Positions 10,495 through 19,558 of a stretch of 64,000 nucleotides of DNA are shown one piece after another (positions within the stretch are counted from its first letter, which is position 1; each line of letters begins with the position of its first letter). The notes beneath the pieces are model-generated. The model was not told where the DNA came from and made no database searches. It saw only the letters and a program-made list of their open reading frames with translations. The position numbers and the translations under genes were made by a program. This DNA comes from Akkermansia sp. Lineage in GTDB: Bacteria; Verrucomicrobiota; Verrucomicrobiia; Verrucomicrobiales; Akkermansiaceae. The stretch spans positions 1 through 64,000 of the forward strand of contig NZ_JAJBTT010000034.1 in the NCBI RefSeq assembly GCF_020860705.1, read 5' to 3'.

Positions 10495-10581
10495 GCGCTC
10501 GTGGCGGAATTGGTAGACGCGCTAGATTCAGGTTCTAGTGGGGGTTCCCCCGTGAAGGTTCGAGTCCTTTCGGGCGCACCA
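10495..10581 (+). tRNA. tRNA-Leu(CAG)
   Basis: Acceptor GCGCTCG pairs with CGGGCGC (one G-U), followed by discriminator A and an encoded CCA. The anticodon stem CTAGA/TCTAG encloses the loop TTCAGGT, giving anticodon CAG, which reads CUG. A long variable arm (GTGGGGGTTCCCCC) marks a class II tRNA, as expected for Leu. The T-loop GGTTCGAGTCC is intact. The 3' part is the attachment site of the downstream element, whose copy restores the gene. Confidence 0.97.
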
Positions 10582-10583
10582 AA
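10555..10583 (+). repeat. attL, 29-bp core in the tRNA-Leu 3' end
   Basis: The repeat spans the T-arm and acceptor 3' strand of the tRNA plus CCA and two extra A residues. It is identical to 19496-19524. As the intact tRNA is on this side, the element-borne copy supplies the functional 3' end. Confidence 0.93.
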
Positions 10584-10584
10584 T

Positions 10585-10615
10585 AGCCTCTGTAAGTTAG
10601 TAACTTACGGAGGCT
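10585..10615 (+). terminator. tRNA-Leu terminator supplied by the element
   Basis: AGCCTCTGTAAGTTA pairs with TAACTTACGGAGGCT (one wobble) and is followed by a T-rich run. It is 4 bp past the tRNA CCA and inside the element. Confidence 0.8.
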
Positions 10616-10624
10616 TCTTGTTTC

Positions 10625-10648
10625 TGCTCACACTTTGGTCACACTAAA
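10625..10648 (+). promoter_or_regulatory. Left arm-type site candidate for the integrase
   Basis: Two 11-bp units, GCTCACACTTT and GGTCACACTAA, lie in tandem between attL and the integrase start. The same 24-bp pattern, with one mismatch, is at 19365-19388 near the right end. Paired sites inside both ends are typical of integrase arm binding. The role is inferred from position and repetition. Confidence 0.6.
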
Positions 10649-10687
10649 CAGAATTGATTTTTAGACCAATTCTTCTACGTTGAGGGT

Positions 10688-12424
10688 ATGAAAAAGGTGA
10701 TAGCAGAGTACCCCCATAAAATATATATTACTCTGACAGGACAAAAAAGAGCGCCTTATAGAATTTGGTATTCACAACAAGGTAGCGACGGGAAGGTACG
10801 GAGAGTTTATATTTCTTCTTCTACCCGTGCAGAGGCAGAAAAAATTGCCTCGAGATTGGTGAAGGAGGTTGAAGACTCCGGATTGTCATTGGGGAAAATA
10901 TTATCGAAAGAAGAGAAAGCGGCTATACAACAATATCAACATAGCGACCCTTCGCTCCCCCTTGCCGACTTGATAAAAGACGGAATCCGTAAGTCATTTT
11001 CGAATAGGTCAAAATGGACTGTTGAACAGGCAGTAGAACATTTTGTGGTGGAATGGAAAAAGAAAAATCAAGGAATATCTAGGTCAGAGATATATCAGAA
11101 AAGTATGAAACGCCATCTAAATAGATTTAGTGTTGATTTTTCTGGGAGGCAAATGTTTTCACTAACGCTGAATGAAGTCAGGGAATGGAGGGATAGCCTG
11201 TCTAGCCTTTCGCAAAAAATCTTAACTGCTAAAGTGCGCAACGATTATCTTTCAGATGTGAAGCGTCTTTTTTCCTACTGTGACCTATCTACAATTGAAA
11301 AATTGGAATTTCTACCGAAGGGAGTTCCTGAAAAAGATTTTTATACCATCGAAGAAGTACAGAAAATATTGGATATTTTACGCCCTCATAAAGAAAAGGC
11401 TATGCATCGGTGTTACGCTACTGCTGTCTTATGTTTTTTTGCCGGATTGCGTCAAAGCGAAGCTCTTGTGTTGGATTGGAACGTTATTAATAAAGCTCTG
11501 AGGTCTTCTGTAGAAAAAAAGTCTTTTGTTGTGACTGATTCAAAAACAGGAAGTAGGCAAGTTTTTATGAATGAGACGCTGATTAAATGGCTTGAAATCA
11601 TTCCTTCTCAAGAGAGACAAGGGAAAATATTTAAAACTACTTCTACGAGCGAACAGGGCAAACAGGATGCTTTTTCTGATAGTTTTAGGAATGCAGTTAA
11701 GGGGATAAGAGTTATTAAAAATGGCCTGAGGCATTCTTGTGCAACATATTTGGTAGCGATAAATAACAACTATGATGCCGTAGCACGCCAAATGGGGCAT
11801 ACTGTTAGCATGCAGAAAAAACATTACATGCGGGCTATTACTTATGAAGAAGCTATGGCTTATTGGAATTTAACTCCTTTCTCCGAAATAGAAGGAATAG
11901 AATTTGCAGCCAAAGAAGAAATTAGGAAAAAAGAAAAAGAAGCAGTCGTGGCATTATTGGATGAAGAAGATGAAAAAAAGAAAGATGCTCTGATTGAACA
12001 CATGCAAAATGGAGAAGACTACGAGCCTTTTATGGATATGCTTGAAAATCCGAACAACTATGACGAAACAATGCTTCCTACAACGAAGGGTGTTTCCTCT
12101 GGTGTTTCGGGGAAAAGCAATGAGCAAATAGCCGAGGAGATATTAGAACAGTCCCGGATTAGCAAGCAAAAAGAGCAGGAGATACTTAAGAAAATTGATA
12201 CTTTGGGAGACGGAAAAACATGGATAGATGAAGATGATGTAATGTACTCAAAATCTACGATTCTCGCCTCAAAAGAGGAGAGAAAAGAAGTAAGGAAAAT
12301 CATAAAAGAACTAGAAGAGGGGAAATTTAATCCAATACATTTTGATGCAGAGTCTATGAAAAATGAGCGCGGAAGAGGCGAGATATTTATCAGGAGCTCA
12401 GAGAGAAGTACGGACGAGAACTGA
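10688..12424 (+). CDS. Tyrosine recombinase (element integrase) with long C-terminal extension
   Basis: This 578-residue integrase should insert and excise the element at tRNA-Leu. An arm-binding type N-terminus (about 10-60) is followed by a core-binding domain (about 110-200) and a catalytic domain (about 218-390). Catalytic residues are R255 (GLRQSEAL), K286 (SKTGSR), R348-H349 (NGLRHS), H371 (MGHT) and Y380 (KKHYMR). The usual H of the HxLR box is N345. Family members normally end soon after the tyrosine. This one runs about 180 residues further with a Lys/Glu-rich, helical, coiled-coil-like region of unknown role. The ATG at 10688 is 107 bp from attL. Confidence 0.93.
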   Translation: MKKVIAEYPHKIYITLTGQKRAPYRIWYSQQGSDGKVRRVYISSSTRAEAEKIASRLVKEVEDSGLSLGKILSKEEKAAIQQYQHSDPSLPLADLIKDGIRKSFSNRSKWTVEQAVEHFVVEWKKKNQGISRSEIYQKSMKRHLNRFSVDFSGRQMFSLTLNEVREWRDSLSSLSQKILTAKVRNDYLSDVKRLFSYCDLSTIEKLEFLPKGVPEKDFYTIEEVQKILDILRPHKEKAMHRCYATAVLCFFAGLRQSEALVLDWNVINKALRSSVEKKSFVVTDSKTGSRQVFMNETLIKWLEIIPSQERQGKIFKTTSTSEQGKQDAFSDSFRNAVKGIRVIKNGLRHSCATYLVAINNNYDAVARQMGHTVSMQKKHYMRAITYEEAMAYWNLTPFSEIEGIEFAAKEEIRKKEKEAVVALLDEEDEKKKDALIEHMQNGEDYEPFMDMLENPNNYDETMLPTTKGVSSGVSGKSNEQIAEEILEQSRISKQKEQEILKKIDTLGDGKTWIDEDDVMYSKSTILASKEERKEVRKIIKELEEGKFNPIHFDAESMKNERGRGEIFIRSSERSTDEN

Positions 12425-12459
12425 CTCGCGATGAGATTTTTAGAGAATATCCGGAGTAG
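12363..12459 (+). pseudogene. Possible frameshifted 32-codon mini-gene overlapping the integrase end
   Basis: An ATG at 12363 opens a frame reading MSAEEAR. From 12382, another frame reads DIYQELREKYGRELTRDEIF and on to a stop at 12457-12459. Restoring two bases at about 12381 (GAGA for GA) would join them into one amphipathic 32-residue protein. The fragment overlaps the 3' end of the integrase in other frames. The joined product looks much more protein-like than the integrase's own last residues, so either a small gene is broken here or the integrase tail itself has shifted. Confidence 0.35.
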
Positions 12460-12775
12460 TTTTAATCTTTTTTAGCAAATTCTTGACTTTATAGATAGTG
12501 CTGAATGAGCAACCCTCCATTTGAAATTTCCCTAATGGCTTGCTTCTTTTTCAAGCGCCTGACATTCACTTTCTACTCTTCAGTGAAGGGAGAACAGAAT
12601 ATATGAGAGAAAAGTCTTTCAGCTTTCCCTATTGGAATGTACTGAAAAAAGGTCGGGAGAAAAAATTACTGTTTGGAGAATGAAAAATAGGCGATTGAGG
12701 CGGCAGAAAACGATTTTTTATTGTACTGTTTTTACCTATTGCTTTTTTCAGTACTATTACTATATATAAATTCTT
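12460..12775. other. Gap upstream of the serine recombinase
   Basis: A 316-bp A+T-rich stretch without a recognisable gene. Its notable content is the 13-bp inverted repeat listed at 12639-12754, which lies directly in front of the serine recombinase gene. Confidence 0.5.
12639..12754. repeat. 13-bp inverted repeats enclosing a 90-bp segment
   Basis: GTACTGAAAAAAG (12639-12651) and its exact complement CTTTTTTCAGTAC (12742-12754) flank 90 bp ending 21 bp before the serine recombinase start. Sites in this position could be the recombinase's own target, either a resolution site or a small invertible segment. No other member of the repeat was noticed in the element. Confidence 0.5.
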
Positions 12776-13438
12776 ATGAAGAAAATTCCTGTAGCTCTTT
12801 TCGTTCGAGTTTCGACCAACGGGCAAAATAATGAACGCCAGATTAGAGATTTGAGCAAAGTTGCCGAAGAACGGGATTGGCAGATAGTGGAGATTATCGA
12901 AGAGAAGATTTCTGGGGCTACAAAATCGGAAGAGAGAAAAGGCGTTCAGAGACTATTAGCCCTAGCCAAAGAAGGGAAAATCAAAAAAGTTCTCGTTACG
13001 GAAATTTCTCGTCTAGGACGAAATACTTATCAAGCAATTTCTGTGGTCAAAGAACTGGAAAAGAGACAGGTTTCTCTTTACTGGCAAAATCAGAACATGG
13101 AAACACTTCTCGAAAACGGGAAAAGGAATCCAGCCGCAAGCCTAGTGTTTGTAATTCTATCTGATTTGGCCGAGACAGAACGGGAAACCATGCTGGAGCG
13201 CATTAATTCGGGCATACAGGCCGCAAAAGCAAAGGGAGTCCACTGTGGCCGCCCAAAAGGGAGTCACGAGTCTCAAGAGGCTTTCCTATCCAAATATGCG
13301 AAAGTCATAAAAGACCTAAAAGATGGAATTTCTGTTCGGAAAGTCATGAAAATTCATGAGGTAAGTAACTTTACCGTTATGAAAATTCGAAAAACTCTTT
13401 CTCTTCAGCACGAAAAACGGGAAAGGAGTAGAGGATAA
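12776..13438 (+). CDS. Serine recombinase (resolvase/invertase family)
   Basis: This 220-residue protein has the full small serine recombinase layout. The catalytic serine is S13 in FVRVSTNGQ. ISRLGRN supplies the conserved active-site arginines. A long helix follows, then the GRPKGS hinge and a C-terminal HTH (about 170-205, SVRKVMKIHEVSNFTVMKIR). Such proteins resolve dimers or invert segments. The Tyr integrase probably handles integration, so this one may resolve multimers or switch the segment between the 13-bp inverted repeats just upstream. Confidence 0.92.
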   Translation: MKKIPVALFVRVSTNGQNNERQIRDLSKVAEERDWQIVEIIEEKISGATKSEERKGVQRLLALAKEGKIKKVLVTEISRLGRNTYQAISVVKELEKRQVSLYWQNQNMETLLENGKRNPAASLVFVILSDLAETERETMLERINSGIQAAKAKGVHCGRPKGSHESQEAFLSKYAKVIKDLKDGISVRKVMKIHEVSNFTVMKIRKTLSLQHEKRERSRG

Positions 13439-13453
13439 TTATCATGACTGTTA

Positions 13454-14440
13454 TTACCTGTAATAGTGTCCATAGGTTTTTTCGAATATCTCCGCATCAC
13501 GTCTGTTCCTTTCTCTTCTTTCTGCATCACGTCTTCTTTTTTCTTGCTCTATCGCTATTATACGTGACCATATAACGTTCAACATTTTTCTTCTAAGAGT
13601 ATTTTTGTCTGTCGTCTTATACTTTTCCTCTAATATATTATAATAATCCTTAGAGGTCATAGGAGTTAATCCTCGCCACTCTAAATTTTCTTTCAAATCT
13701 ACGTGAAACCTCTTTGCGATTGCTATTTTCTCTTTATAAGAATAGTTATTCCAAATATAACCATTACCATCTGTGCCTGTACCATTTATGTAGATAAATA
13801 CAATATCCTTTATTTTTTTGTTAAGCCGATTTTCGTCCGTCGTTTTATACTCTTTATCACATAGCTTGTAATACTCCGTGTAACTTGGAGTCTGTTCATT
13901 ATCCGAGTACAAGTTTCGATAGACCACTTCTAAGGCTTTTGCGATTTCGGTTTTTTCTTCAGGAGAAGCACTATTCCAAGTGTGGCCGTCACCATTTAAT
14001 CTTGAAGAATTACGCTCAACAAGTTTTTCCTCAGCTGCAACCTTCTTCGCGGCTAATCTTTGATTCTCTGCGGCTAATCTAGCAAAGGATTCTTGTTCAG
14101 CAGCTTCTCTTAACTTCTTCGCTTCTGTCTCTGATGCATTAGTATAACAAATTATCAGCGATATGAAGACTCCGATAAATGCAAAAATGCCATATTTTAG
14201 AGTGTGTGTTTTCTTTCTTTGTACTTCTGAATTAGCATTTTTGGAGCCTTCTGCTTTAAATTTAATAACAGTAAGAGTTAAAATCAACCCAAGCAAAATA
14301 CAACCAAATATTATAACGCCTGTGGAGCCGTTATGGTTTGCTATAAAGTTACCTATCACCCCTGTTGTAGCAAACGCTAACGAGGTAATCATAAAATATA
14401 CAAATCCCGAAAAATCATTATTTTCAACATCTTCACTCAT
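13454..14440 (-). CDS. Membrane protein with a duplicated C-terminal domain, unknown function
   Basis: A start at 14440 (MSEDVENNDF) is preferred because AAAGGA lies 9 bp upstream; an earlier in-frame ATG at 14467 lacks such a site. The 328-residue product has three hydrophobic helices (about 13-34, 42-60, 82-100), a charged coiled-coil stretch (about 102-145), then two copies of a roughly 70-residue unit at 149-218 and 224-294. Shared positions include GDG/GNG, W, EEK/KEK, IAK, NL, YY, and KTTD followed by N and L. The end is Arg-rich. No family is recognised. It converges on the serine recombinase with 15 bp between stops. Confidence 0.8.
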   Translation of the reverse strand: MSEDVENNDFSGFVYFMITSLAFATTGVIGNFIANHNGSTGVIIFGCILLGLILTLTVIKFKAEGSKNANSEVQRKKTHTLKYGIFAFIGVFISLIICYTNASETEAKKLREAAEQESFARLAAENQRLAAKKVAAEEKLVERNSSRLNGDGHTWNSASPEEKTEIAKALEVVYRNLYSDNEQTPSYTEYYKLCDKEYKTTDENRLNKKIKDIVFIYINGTGTDGNGYIWNNYSYKEKIAIAKRFHVDLKENLEWRGLTPMTSKDYYNILEEKYKTTDKNTLRRKMLNVIWSRIIAIEQEKRRRDAERRERNRRDAEIFEKTYGHYYR

Positions 14441-14530
14441 AACTTCGTTTCCTTTCTTTATTGGCAATATCTACTTGAGAGACGCATTTTCAAAAAAGGG
14501 GCATTGCGTTAATTCATGAAGGAAAAGGGA

Positions 14531-15145
14531 TTAGAAATCCCAGCTAAATCCGGCTTCAATGGCATGCCAAGGGGAACAATTAGACCCTATTCCCAAAAGC
14601 TCATAGCCTATTTGGATTTTGGCGTTTTCACTAATATTAAAAACCAATCCCGCATTGAACGTGTACATGCTAATACTTTGTTTTACCCCACGATAAGCCG
14701 TGCTGGTTTTGGATTTCTCATCAAGTCGCGTCCATGCTATTCCATATTTTGCACCGAAATAGAGGGAAGCACTGTCACAGACAGGAACATGCAAAGTATA
14801 TCCTCCCAGTAATGGAACTACTTTTCTACTTGTATCTTGAATATCAAAATCATGACTTCCTTTCATATATCCAGAGGTGATTGAGAGCTGATGAATCACG
14901 TTTCCTGTATTGATATTTTCGTGGAAATCAGCAAGTACCCCTCCCATATCGGGTTCCCAATCCTGAGAAGCCCAGGCATAGAGGGCTTTGATTCCTATCC
15001 CATATGTAGTTTCATTATAGGACTGGCTGTAAGACCGCGATTTCTGATTCGGCCAATAATAAGACCAAGGATTTTCGGCGGCTTGGGATATAGCGGCAAG
15101 AGAAAAGGCACTGAGAATGCCTGCAATGAGTATGTTTTTCTTCAT
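14531..15145 (-). CDS. Outer-membrane beta-barrel-like protein
   Basis: A 204-residue exported protein with a clear signal peptide (about 1-22, ending ISQAA). The mature part alternates polar and aromatic residues in strand-like segments (SISMYTFNAGLVFNI, AKIQIGYELLGIG). It ends FSWDF, an aromatic C-terminus of the kind used by the Bam machinery to insert barrels. It resembles small OmpA/OmpW-like or autotransporter-type barrels in style but no exact family is claimed. On a mobile element it might alter phage or conjugation susceptibility of the host; that is speculation. Confidence 0.8.
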   Translation of the reverse strand: MKKNILIAGILSAFSLAAISQAAENPWSYYWPNQKSRSYSQSYNETTYGIGIKALYAWASQDWEPDMGGVLADFHENINTGNVIHQLSITSGYMKGSHDFDIQDTSRKVVPLLGGYTLHVPVCDSASLYFGAKYGIAWTRLDEKSKTSTAYRGVKQSISMYTFNAGLVFNISENAKIQIGYELLGIGSNCSPWHAIEAGFSWDF

Positions 15146-15207
15146 GGTATTTACGTTTAATGTTGAAAAGGAATGATTTGCGAGGTTTTGTTAGAATAAC
15201 TAATCAA

Positions 15208-15378
15208 TTAACTAACCAGCGTTTTTCGTGCCTGTTTTGCCACGGAGGCCTCAACAATCTGTTGAACATTCAGTCCAGTTCTCAAACTCAGAATTACTAA
15301 AGCTTTCAACGCTCGTTGAGAGAGAATGGTCGTAACTTCTGATTCTGAATCCTTCATTGATATAGTTTTTGCGCTCAT
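15208..15378 (-). CDS. Small element protein, possible DNA-binding partner of the divergent regulator
   Basis: 56 residues from ATG 15378 (MSAKTISMKDSESEV). A TTG further upstream at 15414 would extend it into the palindrome region and is less likely. The segment LSQRALKALVILSLRTGLNV resembles the C-terminal part of the divergent HTH protein (ISNRILNLAMKAAVRKGIPL): the S-x-R-x-L pattern, helix length and the Gly match. The two may share a small helical module, perhaps dimerising. Its stop is 62 bp from the start of the barrel gene; the order suggests shared transcription. Confidence 0.55.
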   Translation of the reverse strand: MSAKTISMKDSESEVTTILSQRALKALVILSLRTGLNVQQIVEASVAKQARKTLVS

Positions 15379-15399
15379 ATTTTCACAAATATGCACTCT

Positions 15400-15423
15400 T
15401 TGACGATTTGTCAATCATGATTG
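15400..15423. promoter_or_regulatory. Operator-like palindromes between divergent small genes
   Basis: TTGAC-gattt-GTCAA (15400-15414) overlaps the perfect 12-bp palindrome CAATCATGATTG (15412-15423). They sit in the 90-bp gap between the 56-residue protein (minus) and the HTH regulator (plus), where a lysogeny-switch-like operator would be expected. Confidence 0.55.
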
Positions 15424-15467
15424 CTCAAATGCGTTGAAATATCCCCACAAAGAAGGATTTTTCTTTC

Positions 15468-15827
15468 ATGAAAGACCCAAATATCATTGACGTTCCTACG
15501 TTAGGCCGCTGGATGGCTGAGAATCACGTAAGCCGAGCCACATTGGCTTCTGCCCTCGGATTGAAAAGAAGCGCCATAGATAATTACTTTGTTCGCAATA
15601 GGATACCACGCCAAACCCAGATTCTCCTTAACCGCTATATCCAGGGGCGTGACCCGGCTTCCTCCAAAGACATTTCTTCCTTAATTACTATTCCAATTAG
15701 CAACCGCATCCTAAATCTGGCCATGAAGGCCGCTGTCAGAAAAGGAATTCCTTTAGAAGATTTTGTCGCCTTCTCTGTCGAAGAGATAGCAAAAATGACC
15801 GTGCCAGAGGATTCTTCACCCCTCTAA
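15468..15827 (+). CDS. HTH transcriptional regulator-like protein
   Basis: 119 residues. Residues about 12-55 (WMAENHVSRATLASALGLKR, then SAIDNYFVRNRIP) look like a helix-turn-helix of the XRE/Cro type. A linker follows, then a C-terminal helical part (about 75-112) similar to the small divergent protein. It faces that gene across a palindrome, the usual arrangement of a phage or element repressor pair. Probable role: control of element gene expression. Confidence 0.7.
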   Translation: MKDPNIIDVPTLGRWMAENHVSRATLASALGLKRSAIDNYFVRNRIPRQTQILLNRYIQGRDPASSKDISSLITIPISNRILNLAMKAAVRKGIPLEDFVAFSVEEIAKMTVPEDSSPL

Positions 15828-16301
15828 TGAGCTTGTTTAAGGCATAGAAAAGAAATTATAGGGCTATTGAAAGAAAAGCCCCTCAAGATGCTTGCAAAGA
15901 TATGGGACAAGGCGAATTATAATTCACAGTCTCCCAAATTCCTGAGCAACGAAAAACATAGTCCCTATACGGGCTTTTTCTTAGGATAGCTTCCCAATAA
16001 GATGTACTTGATTCTTGAACGTGTAGGCAGCTTTTTGACTTCATTATATATAAATAGTTTATTATAAATAAGTTATTATATCAATGCTGTAAATGTATCA
16101 AAAATCAAGTCCATTATAGCTAGCAGAGAAAAGCCGCCCCCCGCCGCCCCTCTTTTTTCTATATACTATTTTCCTATATCAACTTCAAAAAAGATACATC
16201 TACTACATTATTTTTATAACTATATAAATATTAGTATATAACGTCGGCGTTTTGCCATGTAGAAGGCATGCAGTGCGAAATCAGCTACATGCTTTTGGAA
16301 C
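15828..16301. other. A+T-rich gap, candidate replication origin
   Basis: No gene is seen. From about 16020 to 16240 the DNA is extremely A+T-rich, with repeats of TTATTATA-type words (16055-16080). It is interrupted by a C-rich tract (GCCGCCCCCCGCCGCCCCTC near 16134) that is a run of G on the minus strand. A weak inverted repeat ACTTGATT/AATCAAGT lies at 16006-16013 and 16103-16110. Next to a primase-helicase gene, such a region is a natural origin candidate; this is inference. Confidence 0.4.
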
Positions 16302-16345
16302 AAAAAAGGGGCCGCCTCAACTTTTGCGAGACAGCCCCCTCTTTT
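16302..16345 (-). terminator. Terminator of the primase-helicase gene
   Basis: On the minus strand GGGGCTGTCTC and GAGGCGGCCCC pair with two mismatches and are followed by TTTTTT. It lies about 15 bp past the stop codon. The opposite strand also has a T-rich run, so it may work both ways. Confidence 0.75.
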
Positions 16346-16356
16346 TCCTGCTTCTA

Positions 16357-18618
16357 TTAAAAGGGAACGGGAGTTCCTTCAACTTGTTTCACATACAACT
16401 CATCCCCTTTGCAAGGAATAAACGTCCATTTGTAACCCTTGCTGACCCTTTTTCCCTTTTTGATGCGCTCAGGATGACTTTTGCTCAGTTTGGAAAACAT
16501 TTCCCCCAGATAGTTGGGAGAAGACAAGAATTTCATTTTCTGATGATATTCATGCTTTTGTAGCTCAACTGACCAATCATGTGCAGTAAGCGAGATTTCT
16601 TCTTTGAACCCTAAAGAATCCAAGTGTCTAAGTAGCCGACCTTCATCTCCAACATCTTCCAACCGCTCTTCAATCTCAGGATGAATATAGCAGGAAAAGC
16701 CGTTTCTTTTCACAGAAGAGTTATCTTCCGCATCTTCAATATTGTATTCATTCTCCAGAAAATCAATGAACGCAGGCAATTCTTGCTCTATCTTTTCATC
16801 AAATCCCCGCGGGTCTTGATGCACCATTTCCGGCACTTCTCCATTGCAGAATATACCGCAAACCTTATCGCGCATGTCAATACCGAGCAACGGGAACGCC
16901 TGAATGGATTTTGCGTCTTCGTTGAGGGCCATGATAAAAAACCACAAAGGATTTGTGCTAAAAGCTTCAATGCCTTTTTTTTCTATTCGAACTACATTAG
17001 AATACTCAAATTCCTTGAATCTTGTGGAAACGCCCCGGCGCGTGCTATTATCGATGTTTGGCTGCACATCATCCATCAACTGAATCTCATTGCCCAGCAT
17101 ATCTCCATTGAAACGAGTTTTCTCACTCATGCAATTATATGGGTTCCCCATTCTTCCGCCCAAGATTGGAATTAGAAGCCGCTTGATGATTAGGCTTTTC
17201 CCGCTTCCTGTGGGACCTACAAAACATAAGAGAGGAGATTTATAATGGCTTTCTGGGTTCATCAAACGTTTCCGTGCTATTTTCAGCCAATTCAATAAAA
17301 CTTTCTTTTGCTCCGGATTATTTGAACTGCCCAGCACGCAATCAATAAGTTCATTGATAGTATCCCACCTCCCAGATTTGCCCTCAATGATGTTTGCTTG
17401 AGTGCGGACAATAACATTTTTACAATCAATGATGTGAAAACCACGTTTTTTGCCTGCGTAGCCCTCAAAAACAGCATGAATCAGTTTGTTGCTCTGAATG
17501 TACAGTATTGCCTTTTCGACTTCGGAAAGGTCTTTTGAACCTCGTTTATCACTTAAGCCTCTTTCTCTCAGCTTCAATACTACGTCCTCCTTCCTCAAGT
17601 CCACATAGTGGATTCCATTTTCTTGTAGGTAGCCGACCTTTCCTAGAAAATAAAAATCTTTTGTCGCCTCTTTACAAAAGCAGTCATCTATTTCCTTGCG
17701 AACGCTCTTCACAAGTGCCAGTGGGAGAGCATGAGAATTTTCAAACGACCTCATTTTCTCAGCAATGTTCTGTTCGAAATCCCATGTAAATTTCGTTTTC
17801 TTCAGATGTTCAACCCCTTCACCTTGCCACATTATCCAAGCGGCCCTAAGAATTTTTTCGTAATGCTCATATTTCTCGATATAAGCATGCCCTGTCCTTT
17901 TCAATAAAATATCGGCCAATTGCTCCAGCTCGCCCACTGTCTTTTCCCTCTCGGATATCCGTTCTTTTTCAGAAAGAGAATCCCATTCATTTTCCCCGCT
18001 ACTCTGCTTTCTATGACATTTCGAAGAAACGGCTTTCTCCGTTTCTTTATAATAGGGTTCAATGGGAACAAGCTTGCTAATATCCGGGCAGATATAGAGG
18101 TTCGCATCACTAGAAAAGAAGCAAAGGCGCGCGGGGTCTTTCCCTGATTCGTCTATTGGAATGCCTAATTCCCGTTTAAAGAGCTGTTTTGCTCCGTTAA
18201 AAATGGCCGTGAAGTTCTCTTTTGACTCCCACTCAGGAATTTTCACGATAATCTTAAGACCTTGACCAGAAGGAGAAACGAAAGAAGCGGCAACTTGAGG
18301 CATTCCTGAGGATTTTCTTTTCAGTCCCTCCCAATCGGCCTCTTTTCCATCTTCATTGTCGAAATCAAGCACCATGAATCCCGATTTTGATGAAATATTG
18401 TGGTCTTTGCGGCCTCCTTCAAACGTTCCTGCAATTGTTACTGCTGGAAGGTCAAACTTCAACTGTTTCCGTTTCGCTTTATCCTCCGCATTGCGGATGA
18501 GTTCTATTTGAGTTTTGTAGTCTTCATTCTTGATTGAATCAAGAAATGATTCCAGTGATAACTCTTCCCCGACTTTATCTGTTACGTGTAAATATTTATG
18601 AATATAAATATTCTTCAT
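16357..18618 (-). CDS. Primase-helicase (VirE/BT4734-like N-terminus with SF3-type ATPase)
   Basis: A 753-residue replication protein. The N-terminal 190 residues match the primase-like fold of BT4734/VirE-N proteins: VLDFDNED (83-90), SPSGQGLKI (115-123) and DPARLCFFSSD (161-171) are the expected catalytic and nucleotide-binding positions. The C-terminal half is a phage/plasmid-type helicase ATPase with Walker A GPTGSGKS (468-475), Walker B EIQLMDD (511-517) and sensor-like MALNED (563-568). It should prime and unwind the element's own origin. It is the largest element gene, with the A+T-rich gap on its 3' side. Confidence 0.9.
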   Translation of the reverse strand: MKNIYIHKYLHVTDKVGEELSLESFLDSIKNEDYKTQIELIRNAEDKAKRKQLKFDLPAVTIAGTFEGGRKDHNISSKSGFMVLDFDNEDGKEADWEGLKRKSSGMPQVAASFVSPSGQGLKIIVKIPEWESKENFTAIFNGAKQLFKRELGIPIDESGKDPARLCFFSSDANLYICPDISKLVPIEPYYKETEKAVSSKCHRKQSSGENEWDSLSEKERISEREKTVGELEQLADILLKRTGHAYIEKYEHYEKILRAAWIMWQGEGVEHLKKTKFTWDFEQNIAEKMRSFENSHALPLALVKSVRKEIDDCFCKEATKDFYFLGKVGYLQENGIHYVDLRKEDVVLKLRERGLSDKRGSKDLSEVEKAILYIQSNKLIHAVFEGYAGKKRGFHIIDCKNVIVRTQANIIEGKSGRWDTINELIDCVLGSSNNPEQKKVLLNWLKIARKRLMNPESHYKSPLLCFVGPTGSGKSLIIKRLLIPILGGRMGNPYNCMSEKTRFNGDMLGNEIQLMDDVQPNIDNSTRRGVSTRFKEFEYSNVVRIEKKGIEAFSTNPLWFFIMALNEDAKSIQAFPLLGIDMRDKVCGIFCNGEVPEMVHQDPRGFDEKIEQELPAFIDFLENEYNIEDAEDNSSVKRNGFSCYIHPEIEERLEDVGDEGRLLRHLDSLGFKEEISLTAHDWSVELQKHEYHQKMKFLSSPNYLGEMFSKLSKSHPERIKKGKRVSKGYKWTFIPCKGDELYVKQVEGTPVPF

Positions 18619-18709
18619 AATTCGATTCTATTAAGCCTCTTTTCATTTGAATATAAAATGACGACCAATCGTTCTGCAAATGGGAAGGGGCTTGGTTTAT
18701 AATAAATTG

Positions 18710-19132
18710 TTAATGGGCAAAGAATGCTGTTAAACGTTCAGCTTCGATTTCTTCCGTCGTTTTCATCCAAGGAAAAAATGCTTTCCTCTTTTCCAGCACG
18801 TTAGGAGCGACTTCAAAAGGCTTTGTCTTTTTAGGTCCCTGATAATAACTAAACTGGTTTTCCTCGTTGCATTCATACTTGGGAGTAAACGCGTAATAAA
18901 CGTTTTTATTTTCAATATTGAAGAATAAGGAAAGATACTTTTCCCAGCGTTTCCAATGCTTTCCACAGATAGCGGCGGGGCTGATTCCCATCATTAATGC
19001 TATTTCTTTCTTGCGAAAGATATTTGCTATTCTCTTCTCTTTATTGTGCTCAATAATAGAGATTAACAATATGATTCTGTTCGCCATTCTAGGACGATGT
19101 TCCATTAATTTTTTCAATAATATGTTAACCAT
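18710..19132 (-). CDS. Small HTH-like element protein
   Basis: 140 residues, rich in Lys and aromatic residues. The segment RKKEIALMMGISPAAICGKH (about 41-60) has the pattern of a helix-turn-helix. The C-terminal part (KPFEVAPNVLEKRKAFFPWM) is unlike any family I know. It lies 91 bp upstream of the primase-helicase on the same strand and may regulate it or act in replication initiation or excision. A very A+T-rich upstream stretch (19133-19200) could hold the promoter. Confidence 0.65.
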   Translation of the reverse strand: MVNILLKKLMEHRPRMANRIILLISIIEHNKEKRIANIFRKKEIALMMGISPAAICGKHWKRWEKYLSLFFNIENKNVYYAFTPKYECNEENQFSYYQGPKKTKPFEVAPNVLEKRKAFFPWMKTTEEIEAERLTAFFAH

Positions 19133-19495
19133 ATATATTTTAATTTTATAGTTTTGGTTTATAGCTTGATAAACCCTTCATATTTCTTTACATTTGGAAC
19201 AAAAAAATTTACTTACTTTTTTTATTTTTTTATTTTCTAACTCGAAAAAGTACGTTTTTTCCTTCTCTGCGATATATTTATTTTTTATCGCATCCGTGAC
19301 CCTTCTATGGTTTTCAGAAAGGACACATAGAAGTCATTTTCAAAAAAGGGGGAGTTTAGATTTTTGCTCACACTTTGCTCACACTAAAAATCTCCTAAAA
19401 CACAATGATATTTTTGAATTTTTGACATATATTGCATTTGGTAAAAATGTAAGTCGTTGATTATAAGTATTTATATTTTAACTCTGTCATAGTGA
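19133..19495. other. Right-end gap of the element
   Basis: A+T-rich, without a trustworthy gene. It contains the right arm-type site (19365-19388). A short hydrophobic plus-strand frame (19194-19460) is probably chance in A+T-rich DNA. CATTTTCAAAAAAGGGG near 19335 also occurs near 14484 inside the element. Confidence 0.45.
19365..19388 (+). promoter_or_regulatory. Right arm-type site candidate for the integrase
   Basis: GCTCACACTTT followed by GCTCACACTAA, 107 bp inside attR, in the same orientation as the left copy at 10625-10648 and differing from it at one base. Confidence 0.6.
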
Positions 19496-19524
19496 AAGGT
19501 TCGAGTCCTTTCGGGCGCACCAAA
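19496..19524 (+). repeat. attR, 29-bp displaced copy of the tRNA-Leu 3' end
   Basis: Identical to 10555-10583. It has no 5' tRNA half upstream, so it is not a tRNA gene. It marks the right end of the element and is followed directly by the strong hairpin at 19526-19558, probably the original tRNA terminator. Confidence 0.93.
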
Positions 19525-19525
19525 C

Positions 19526-19558
19526 AAGGCCCTGCAAGTTAACTGCTTGCAGGGCCTT
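19526..19558 (+). terminator. Probable original tRNA-Leu terminator
   Basis: AAGGCCCTGCAAG and CTTGCAGGGCCTT pair perfectly around a 7-nt loop, one base after attR. Its stem differs from that at 10585-10615, consistent with one belonging to the host and one to the element. Confidence 0.8.

Follow-up and report, generated by a model that had tools for sequence, protein, structure and literature searches.

We analysed a 64,000-nucleotide stretch of an Akkermansia genome (assembly GCF_020860705.1, contig NZ_JAJBTT010000034.1, positions 1 to 64,000; hereafter the window) from the family Akkermansiaceae, which carries an 8.94-kb island inserted between 29-bp repeats in a tRNA-Leu(CAG) gene. The repeats, which form the attL core (10555-10583, + strand) and the attR core (19496-19524, + strand), are a perfect direct repeat and copy the tRNA 3' end; a chance origin of such a pair 8.94 kb apart is far too improbable. 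The tRNA gene (10495-10581, + strand; ARAGORN, Rfam RF00005) remains whole in spite of the insertion, its 3' end being restored by the element, while the right repeat consists of that end only, no complete tRNA having been found there. The joined flanks (145-147 bp) are 100% identical to the uninterrupted chromosome in five congeneric species (G005, G006, G007, G008 and G010), and 98.6% and 95.7% identical to the empty site in G004 and G011, respectively. Judged by sequence comparison with these unoccupied congener sites, site-specific insertion is directly proven. An earlier note on this DNA had placed the island in tRNA-Leu(CAG) with limits that are exact to the base, and the empty congener site adds proof. 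The GC content is 39% within the island against about 56% outside, and all eight open reading frames (ORFs) of the element are open. Its att repeats, restored tRNA, att-adjacent integrase and empty site elsewhere constitute the full set of membership features of a tRNA-gene integrative element of the tyrosine recombinase type.

Both junctions carry additional structure. An element-borne terminator hairpin with a 14-bp stem (10585-10615, + strand) stands in for the displaced native tRNA-Leu terminator, which now lies at the right junction (19526-19558, + strand) and is found directly 3' of the tRNA in empty-site genomes; these two hairpins are the longest terminator-like stems of the region. 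Candidate integrase arm-type sites are provided by a 28-bp repeat near attL (10621-10648, + strand), 93% identical to one near attR (19361-19388, + strand) that holds TTTGCTCACA twice. The same tRNA-Leu(CAG) of a congener is occupied by a different island of ~39 kb (G009:C23, about 69.6-109.3 kb; L137 and L138), which encodes a separate integrase, a set of BREX genes (BrxC, PglX, PglZ, BrxL) and an AbiEi/AbiEii pair; the gene is a hotspot for unrelated elements. In G010 (L135, G010:C1:1531722-1534177), the sequence that elsewhere comes next to the tRNA-Leu(CAG) terminator lies about 1.9 kb away from it.

Adjacent to attL lies the gene for a tyrosine integrase of 578 aa (10688-12424, + strand; PF00589 E=1e-10; phrog_1 E=8e-34), in which the motifs AGLR, GLRH, MGH and KKHY are kept. 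It is 27-29% identical to the 380-400-aa integrases of the genus and extends ~180 aa beyond the C-terminal side of the catalytic domain, an extension not shared by related integrases of the genus. Its sole phage match is to Akkermansia phage Chantilly (33% over about 154 aa).

The replication region is built around a 753-aa primase-helicase (16357-18618, - strand) that comprises a BT4734_N domain (residues 53-175; PF08800 E=4e-25) and a DUF5906 domain (residues 466-568; PF19263 E=4e-9), the latter match scoring 37.6 bits against a cut-off of 27.6. Both halves are matched by a single 806-aa protein from a different genus of the family, encoded close to tRNA-Asp (L068). DUF5906 is, like DUF3987, a primase domain that serves along with int and AlpA to define the phage-inducible chromosomal minimalist islands (PICMIs), a group of satellites (PMC10803314). 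The primase-helicase gene is flanked by a non-coding gap (15828-16356, 36% GC, one palindrome) that is a candidate origin or control region; the earlier note had singled out this gap as A+T-rich, which holds, though the most A+T-rich stretch is 19133-19495 (27% GC). No iterons were found in the gap. Upstream of the primase gene, a 140-aa helix-turn-helix (HTH)-like protein (18710-19132, - strand) occupies a position like that of alpA in PICMIs, and its comparison with AlpA-like proteins of relatives was not significant (hhalign, probability 1.6%). Two other assignments of the primase-helicase were rejected. For a PADLOC match to a defence reverse transcriptase (RTasVirE-PriCT2), only the BT4734/VirE-type N-terminal part aligned and no reverse transcriptase is present; the NCBIfam match to a CRISPR-associated PrimPol reached 60 bits, far under the cut-off of 200.

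Between the integrase and the cargo genes, the element encodes a small serine recombinase of the resolvase/invertase type (220 aa, 12776-13438, + strand; PF00239 E=4e-35). A res-like site (12639-12754, + strand) precedes this gene, consisting of GTACTGAAAAAAG at 12639-12651 and an inverted copy at 12742-12754; its total length, about 115 bp, recalls the res sites of Tn3-type resolvases. The same layout recurs upstream of the recombinase family, where a half-site GTATTCAAA is followed after about 97-107 bp by an inverted copy. In the window and in its G046 homologue GTACTGAAA takes the place of GTATTCAAA, in the window on both sides. Across 22 upstream regions we counted 40 half-sites, whereas shuffled sequences averaged 2.6 with a maximum of 9; the test flatters the motif because it was picked after the repeats had been seen. 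The fixed position of the half-sites and the paired change in the window are nevertheless hard to account for in another way.

The recombinase copy in congener G046 is 98% identical, and a 785-bp block comprising the gene and its upstream site is 97% identical at L186:551-1332 (G046:C35), where it adjoins a restriction-endonuclease-like gene. The recombinase cassette appears to be exchanged on its own, since no other part of the element is found there. Further relatives, at 39-48% identity, occur in 35 other genomes of the order. Eight of the 20 recombinase loci that we fetched additionally encode a relative of the integrases of helicase-bearing elements described below, and two of these eight, L197 (tRNA-Pro) and L198 (tRNA-Ala), are bounded by 29-32-bp tRNA repeats. 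L197, which shares the recombinase at 46%, encodes two proteins resembling the small terminase subunit TerS (phrog_51, E=2e-16 and 1e-16).

The remaining genes encode candidate cargo and regulators. An outer-membrane beta-barrel of Lom/OmpX type with a signal-peptide-like start (14531-15145, - strand) matches PF13505 (E=4e-6) at 27.6 bits, just under the cut-off of 28.7. It shares 44% identity with a paralogue in the same genome, an outer-membrane protein encoded on the chromosome (G000:C20:144208), and belongs to a family with relatives in 68 of the 76 genomes of the genus; most simply, it would be captured host cargo. A 337-aa membrane protein (13454-14467, - strand) has two transmembrane stretches followed by two ~75-aa repeats that are 33% identical over 73 aa; it has no relative in the 76 genomes and no confident family in Pfam, PHROGs or NCBIfam. 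A candidate repressor, a 119-aa HTH regulator (15468-15827, + strand; phrog_2967 E=4e-4), diverges from a 68-aa regulator-like protein (15208-15414, - strand) that aligns weakly with the C-terminal half of the HTH protein. The regulator's two-part layout is common to those of L058, L124 and L073, at 20-25% identity. At L124 (G000:C41), an integrase adjoining tRNA-Tyr is followed by a 207-aa protein that starts MSTKVFISWSGELSKQ and is possibly TIR-like, together with two HTH proteins of this layout. The predicted structures of the 140-aa and 337-aa proteins had mean predicted local distance difference test (pLDDT) values of 45 and 55, respectively, and were excluded from fold searches.

Every component named in the earlier note, from the att repeats, integrase and primase-helicase to the divergent regulators, barrel, serine recombinase and duplicated-domain membrane protein, is thus present. 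Its statement that the cargo matches nothing known applies to the membrane protein, the only one without a relative in the genus, but not to the barrel, nor to the recombinase, which is found repeatedly, and often next to a tyrosine integrase, in elements of the order that are linked to tRNA genes. Its description of an element lacking transfer and capsid genes is true for every ORF searched: against Pfam, PHROGs and NCBIfam, we found no relaxase, coupling-protein or type IV secretion domain and no terminase, large-subunit terminase (TerL), portal or capsid gene, nor any Psu/Sid-type protein for capsid-size or helper manipulation by Pfam or PHROGs. A small tRNA-integrated island with an integrase and a replication gene could in principle be an integrative and mobilisable element, moved in trans via an oriT by a co-resident conjugative element, and an oriT without a relaxase would be invisible to a protein search. 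Given that no ORF holds a relaxase or coupling-protein domain and that relatives of the primase among the plasmids searched match no more than 21-25% of it, we regard this explanation as very improbable.

Close relatives of the integrase and of the primase are absent from the 76 congeneric genomes and from the plasmid and phage collections, and a pattern scan of viral and genome contigs detected no close relatives of the primase. The whole element has no second copy in the 76 genomes, so the search for it in other strains that the earlier note had proposed yields distant relatives of its modules in the order and no close copy. This singularity, along with the lack of structural genes, would suit a remnant, dormant or decaying, of what was once a larger prophage or island, now immobile and kept for its cargo. 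The open ORFs, identical att cores and kept integrase motifs speak against decay, as does the recurrence of complete elements of the same plan in the order. We set a prophage remnant low, as an improbable origin, because structural genes are absent and the att-bounded layout is complete. The homologues are more than decayed fragments, and the element matches no described family.

We sampled relatives from one genome per species of the order, using mechanical ORFs as gene calls; the flanks of many relative loci were cut by contig ends. Relatives of the helicase at 25-33% identity occur in 26 of 387 genomes, the source genome included. Seven loci, of 5.5-10.8 kb, lie between tRNA-derived repeats of 28-52 bp: L058 and L090 at tRNA-Met, L075 and L077 at tRNA-Arg, L082 at tRNA-Cys, L083 at tRNA-Asn and L086 at tRNA-Lys. 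All seven encode an integrase-type protein at one of their ends, and in most of them an AlpA/excisionase-like HTH or primase gene lies beside the helicase; L077 also encodes a serine recombinase, at 44% identity to that of the window. TerS was identified in three of the seven, namely L086 (PF03592 E=1e-8, phrog_51 E=1e-18), L083 (phrog_57 E=1e-7) and L090 (phrog_57 E=1e-9), in which no gene beyond the helicase is recognised as, or is long enough for, a typical TerL or portal. With L197, four elements therefore carry TerS without another recognised packaging gene, which is a hallmark of phage satellites. In the source genome itself, L058:4109-14588 (G000:C31; 10.4 kb, tRNA-Met, 48-bp att repeat) encodes an AlpA-like HTH protein, a primase-like gene, a DUF5906-type helicase and a methyltransferase with a BsuBI/PstI-type endonuclease, a restriction-modification pair of a sort that satellites usually carry as cargo. 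In another genus, a helicase closely related to that of L086 lies beside tRNA-Leu(CAG) (L089), on a truncated contig. Phage-like loci of congeners (L059-L062) also have a related helicase domain; fecal 'phage' contigs that encode BT4734 primases (L213-L215) were set aside because of their unclear gene content.

With chances that we judge about even, we interpret the island as an integrative element resembling phage satellites, which as a minimal chromosomal island functions in the manner of PICMIs or the phage-inducible chromosomal islands (PICIs). The integrase would recombine the 29-bp attP with the tRNA-Leu(CAG) 3' end, and the tRNA gene survives, as its own 3' end and a terminator are brought by the element. 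The divergent HTH and small-regulator pair would keep the element silent until a trigger, most likely a helper phage, prompts excision. The primase-helicase, to judge from its domains, would then replicate the element from an origin of its own, and the serine recombinase, acting at its adjacent res-like site, may resolve multimers of the circle or concatemer. Finally, by analogy with the TerS-bearing relatives, the helper's terminase and capsid would package the DNA. The barrel and membrane proteins may be cargo that alters the host envelope, speculatively against other phages. Two candidate helpers reside in the same genome. One is a contractile-tail prophage (G000:C37; L208, L129) with TerS (phrog_57), TerL, portal, capsid, sheath and tail fibre genes, whose integrase adjoins tRNA-Pro(CGG), and it qualifies as a candidate because its TerS belongs to phrog_57, as in L083 and L090. 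The other (G000:C54; L122) is a second set of head genes with TerL, portal and capsid.

Several observations weigh against a satellite. By Pfam, PHROGs and NCBIfam this copy lacks TerS, and it has no match to AlpA (PF05930 or PF12728); no packaging site shared with the C37 and C54 prophages stands clearly above the background of other chromosomal regions; and viral contigs contain no match to the integrase or primase. The window's helicase is distant from those of the TerS-bearing elements (only 23-24% identity), and although the helicase tree joins it with L058 at 99/99, this unites two long branches, a kind of join that the program warns may be false. Packaging by a helper is consequently the weakest step, as this copy has no TerS and no site shared with the prophages; the helper terminase could act at a site too short or diverged to detect, or the element may not be packaged.

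Because TerS and AlpA are missing from this copy, the main rival is an integrative plasmid-like element resembling the tycheposons, which would excise, replicate autonomously through the primase-helicase, resolve its multimers through the serine recombinase and spread by natural transformation, vesicles or generalized transduction, with no dedicated hijacking of a helper. The missing shared packaging site and the host-derived cargo agree with such an element, and the conserved res-like site of the recombinase family fits plasmid multimer resolution. We consider it rather unlikely, however, as the primase is of a type that PICMIs use (PMC10803314) and relatives of both the helicase and the recombinase reside in TerS-bearing elements, from which the satellite interpretation gains support. 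Where the earlier note had suggested a new satellite or mobilisable element, an integrative element is thus established and a satellite is supported by the TerS-bearing relatives, while conjugative mobilisation finds no support, a relaxase being absent.

Among known systems, the element most resembles the PICMIs of Vibrionaceae (PMC10803314), which are likewise very small and att-bounded, with a PF00589 integrase, a DUF5906-type primase and no capsid or terminase genes; some carry restriction-modification systems, as does L058. Unlike PICMIs, the window's element lies in tRNA-Leu instead of downstream of fis, has no recognisable AlpA, has an extra serine recombinase and a BT4734_N primase half, and belongs to a host of the phylum Verrucomicrobiota, its helper not being known. 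We do not file it as a PICMI, because neither AlpA nor the fis site was found. With PICIs it shares an integrase, divergent regulators and a primase, and four related elements of the order have TerS, whereas the window copy lacks TerS and AlpA and differs in gene order. P4-like satellites are also tRNA-integrated and encode a primase-helicase, and the source genome has defence cargo in L058, but the window's element has no Psu or Sid type protein. The marine tycheposons are tRNA-integrated elements with a tyrosine recombinase, replication genes, variable cargo and no capsid; the general plan is shared, and the hosts differ. Tycheposons are named in PMC11389934. The Akkermansia prophages (C37, C54 and phage Chantilly) have the same integrase family, but the window's element lacks their structural and packaging module. 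Overall it works most like a PICMI, and a fair label is a satellite-like integrative element of a new lineage.

More tentatively, we propose that Verrucomicrobiota, including Akkermansia, have a native family of phage satellites that would combine a tRNA-targeting integrase with a DUF5906 primase-helicase. Some members would have TerS, and others would process satellite multimers by means of a small serine recombinase and its dedicated res-like site of ~115 bp; as cargo they would carry either defence genes or an outer-membrane protein acquired from the host. In Proteobacteria and Firmicutes, phage satellites are well documented. A full-text search of open-access papers returned passing co-mentions but no article dedicated to satellites of Verrucomicrobiota or Akkermansia, and our best reading is a satellite lineage of the PICMI/PICI-like kind that had not been described in Verrucomicrobiota before. 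DUF5906 with an integrase at a tRNA, TerS without TerL, and the res-like site would serve as markers for finding such elements. Should this reading hold, Akkermansia, which is prominent among gut commensals and a candidate probiotic, harbours a layer of elements that depend on helpers and mobilise genes for defence and for the envelope.

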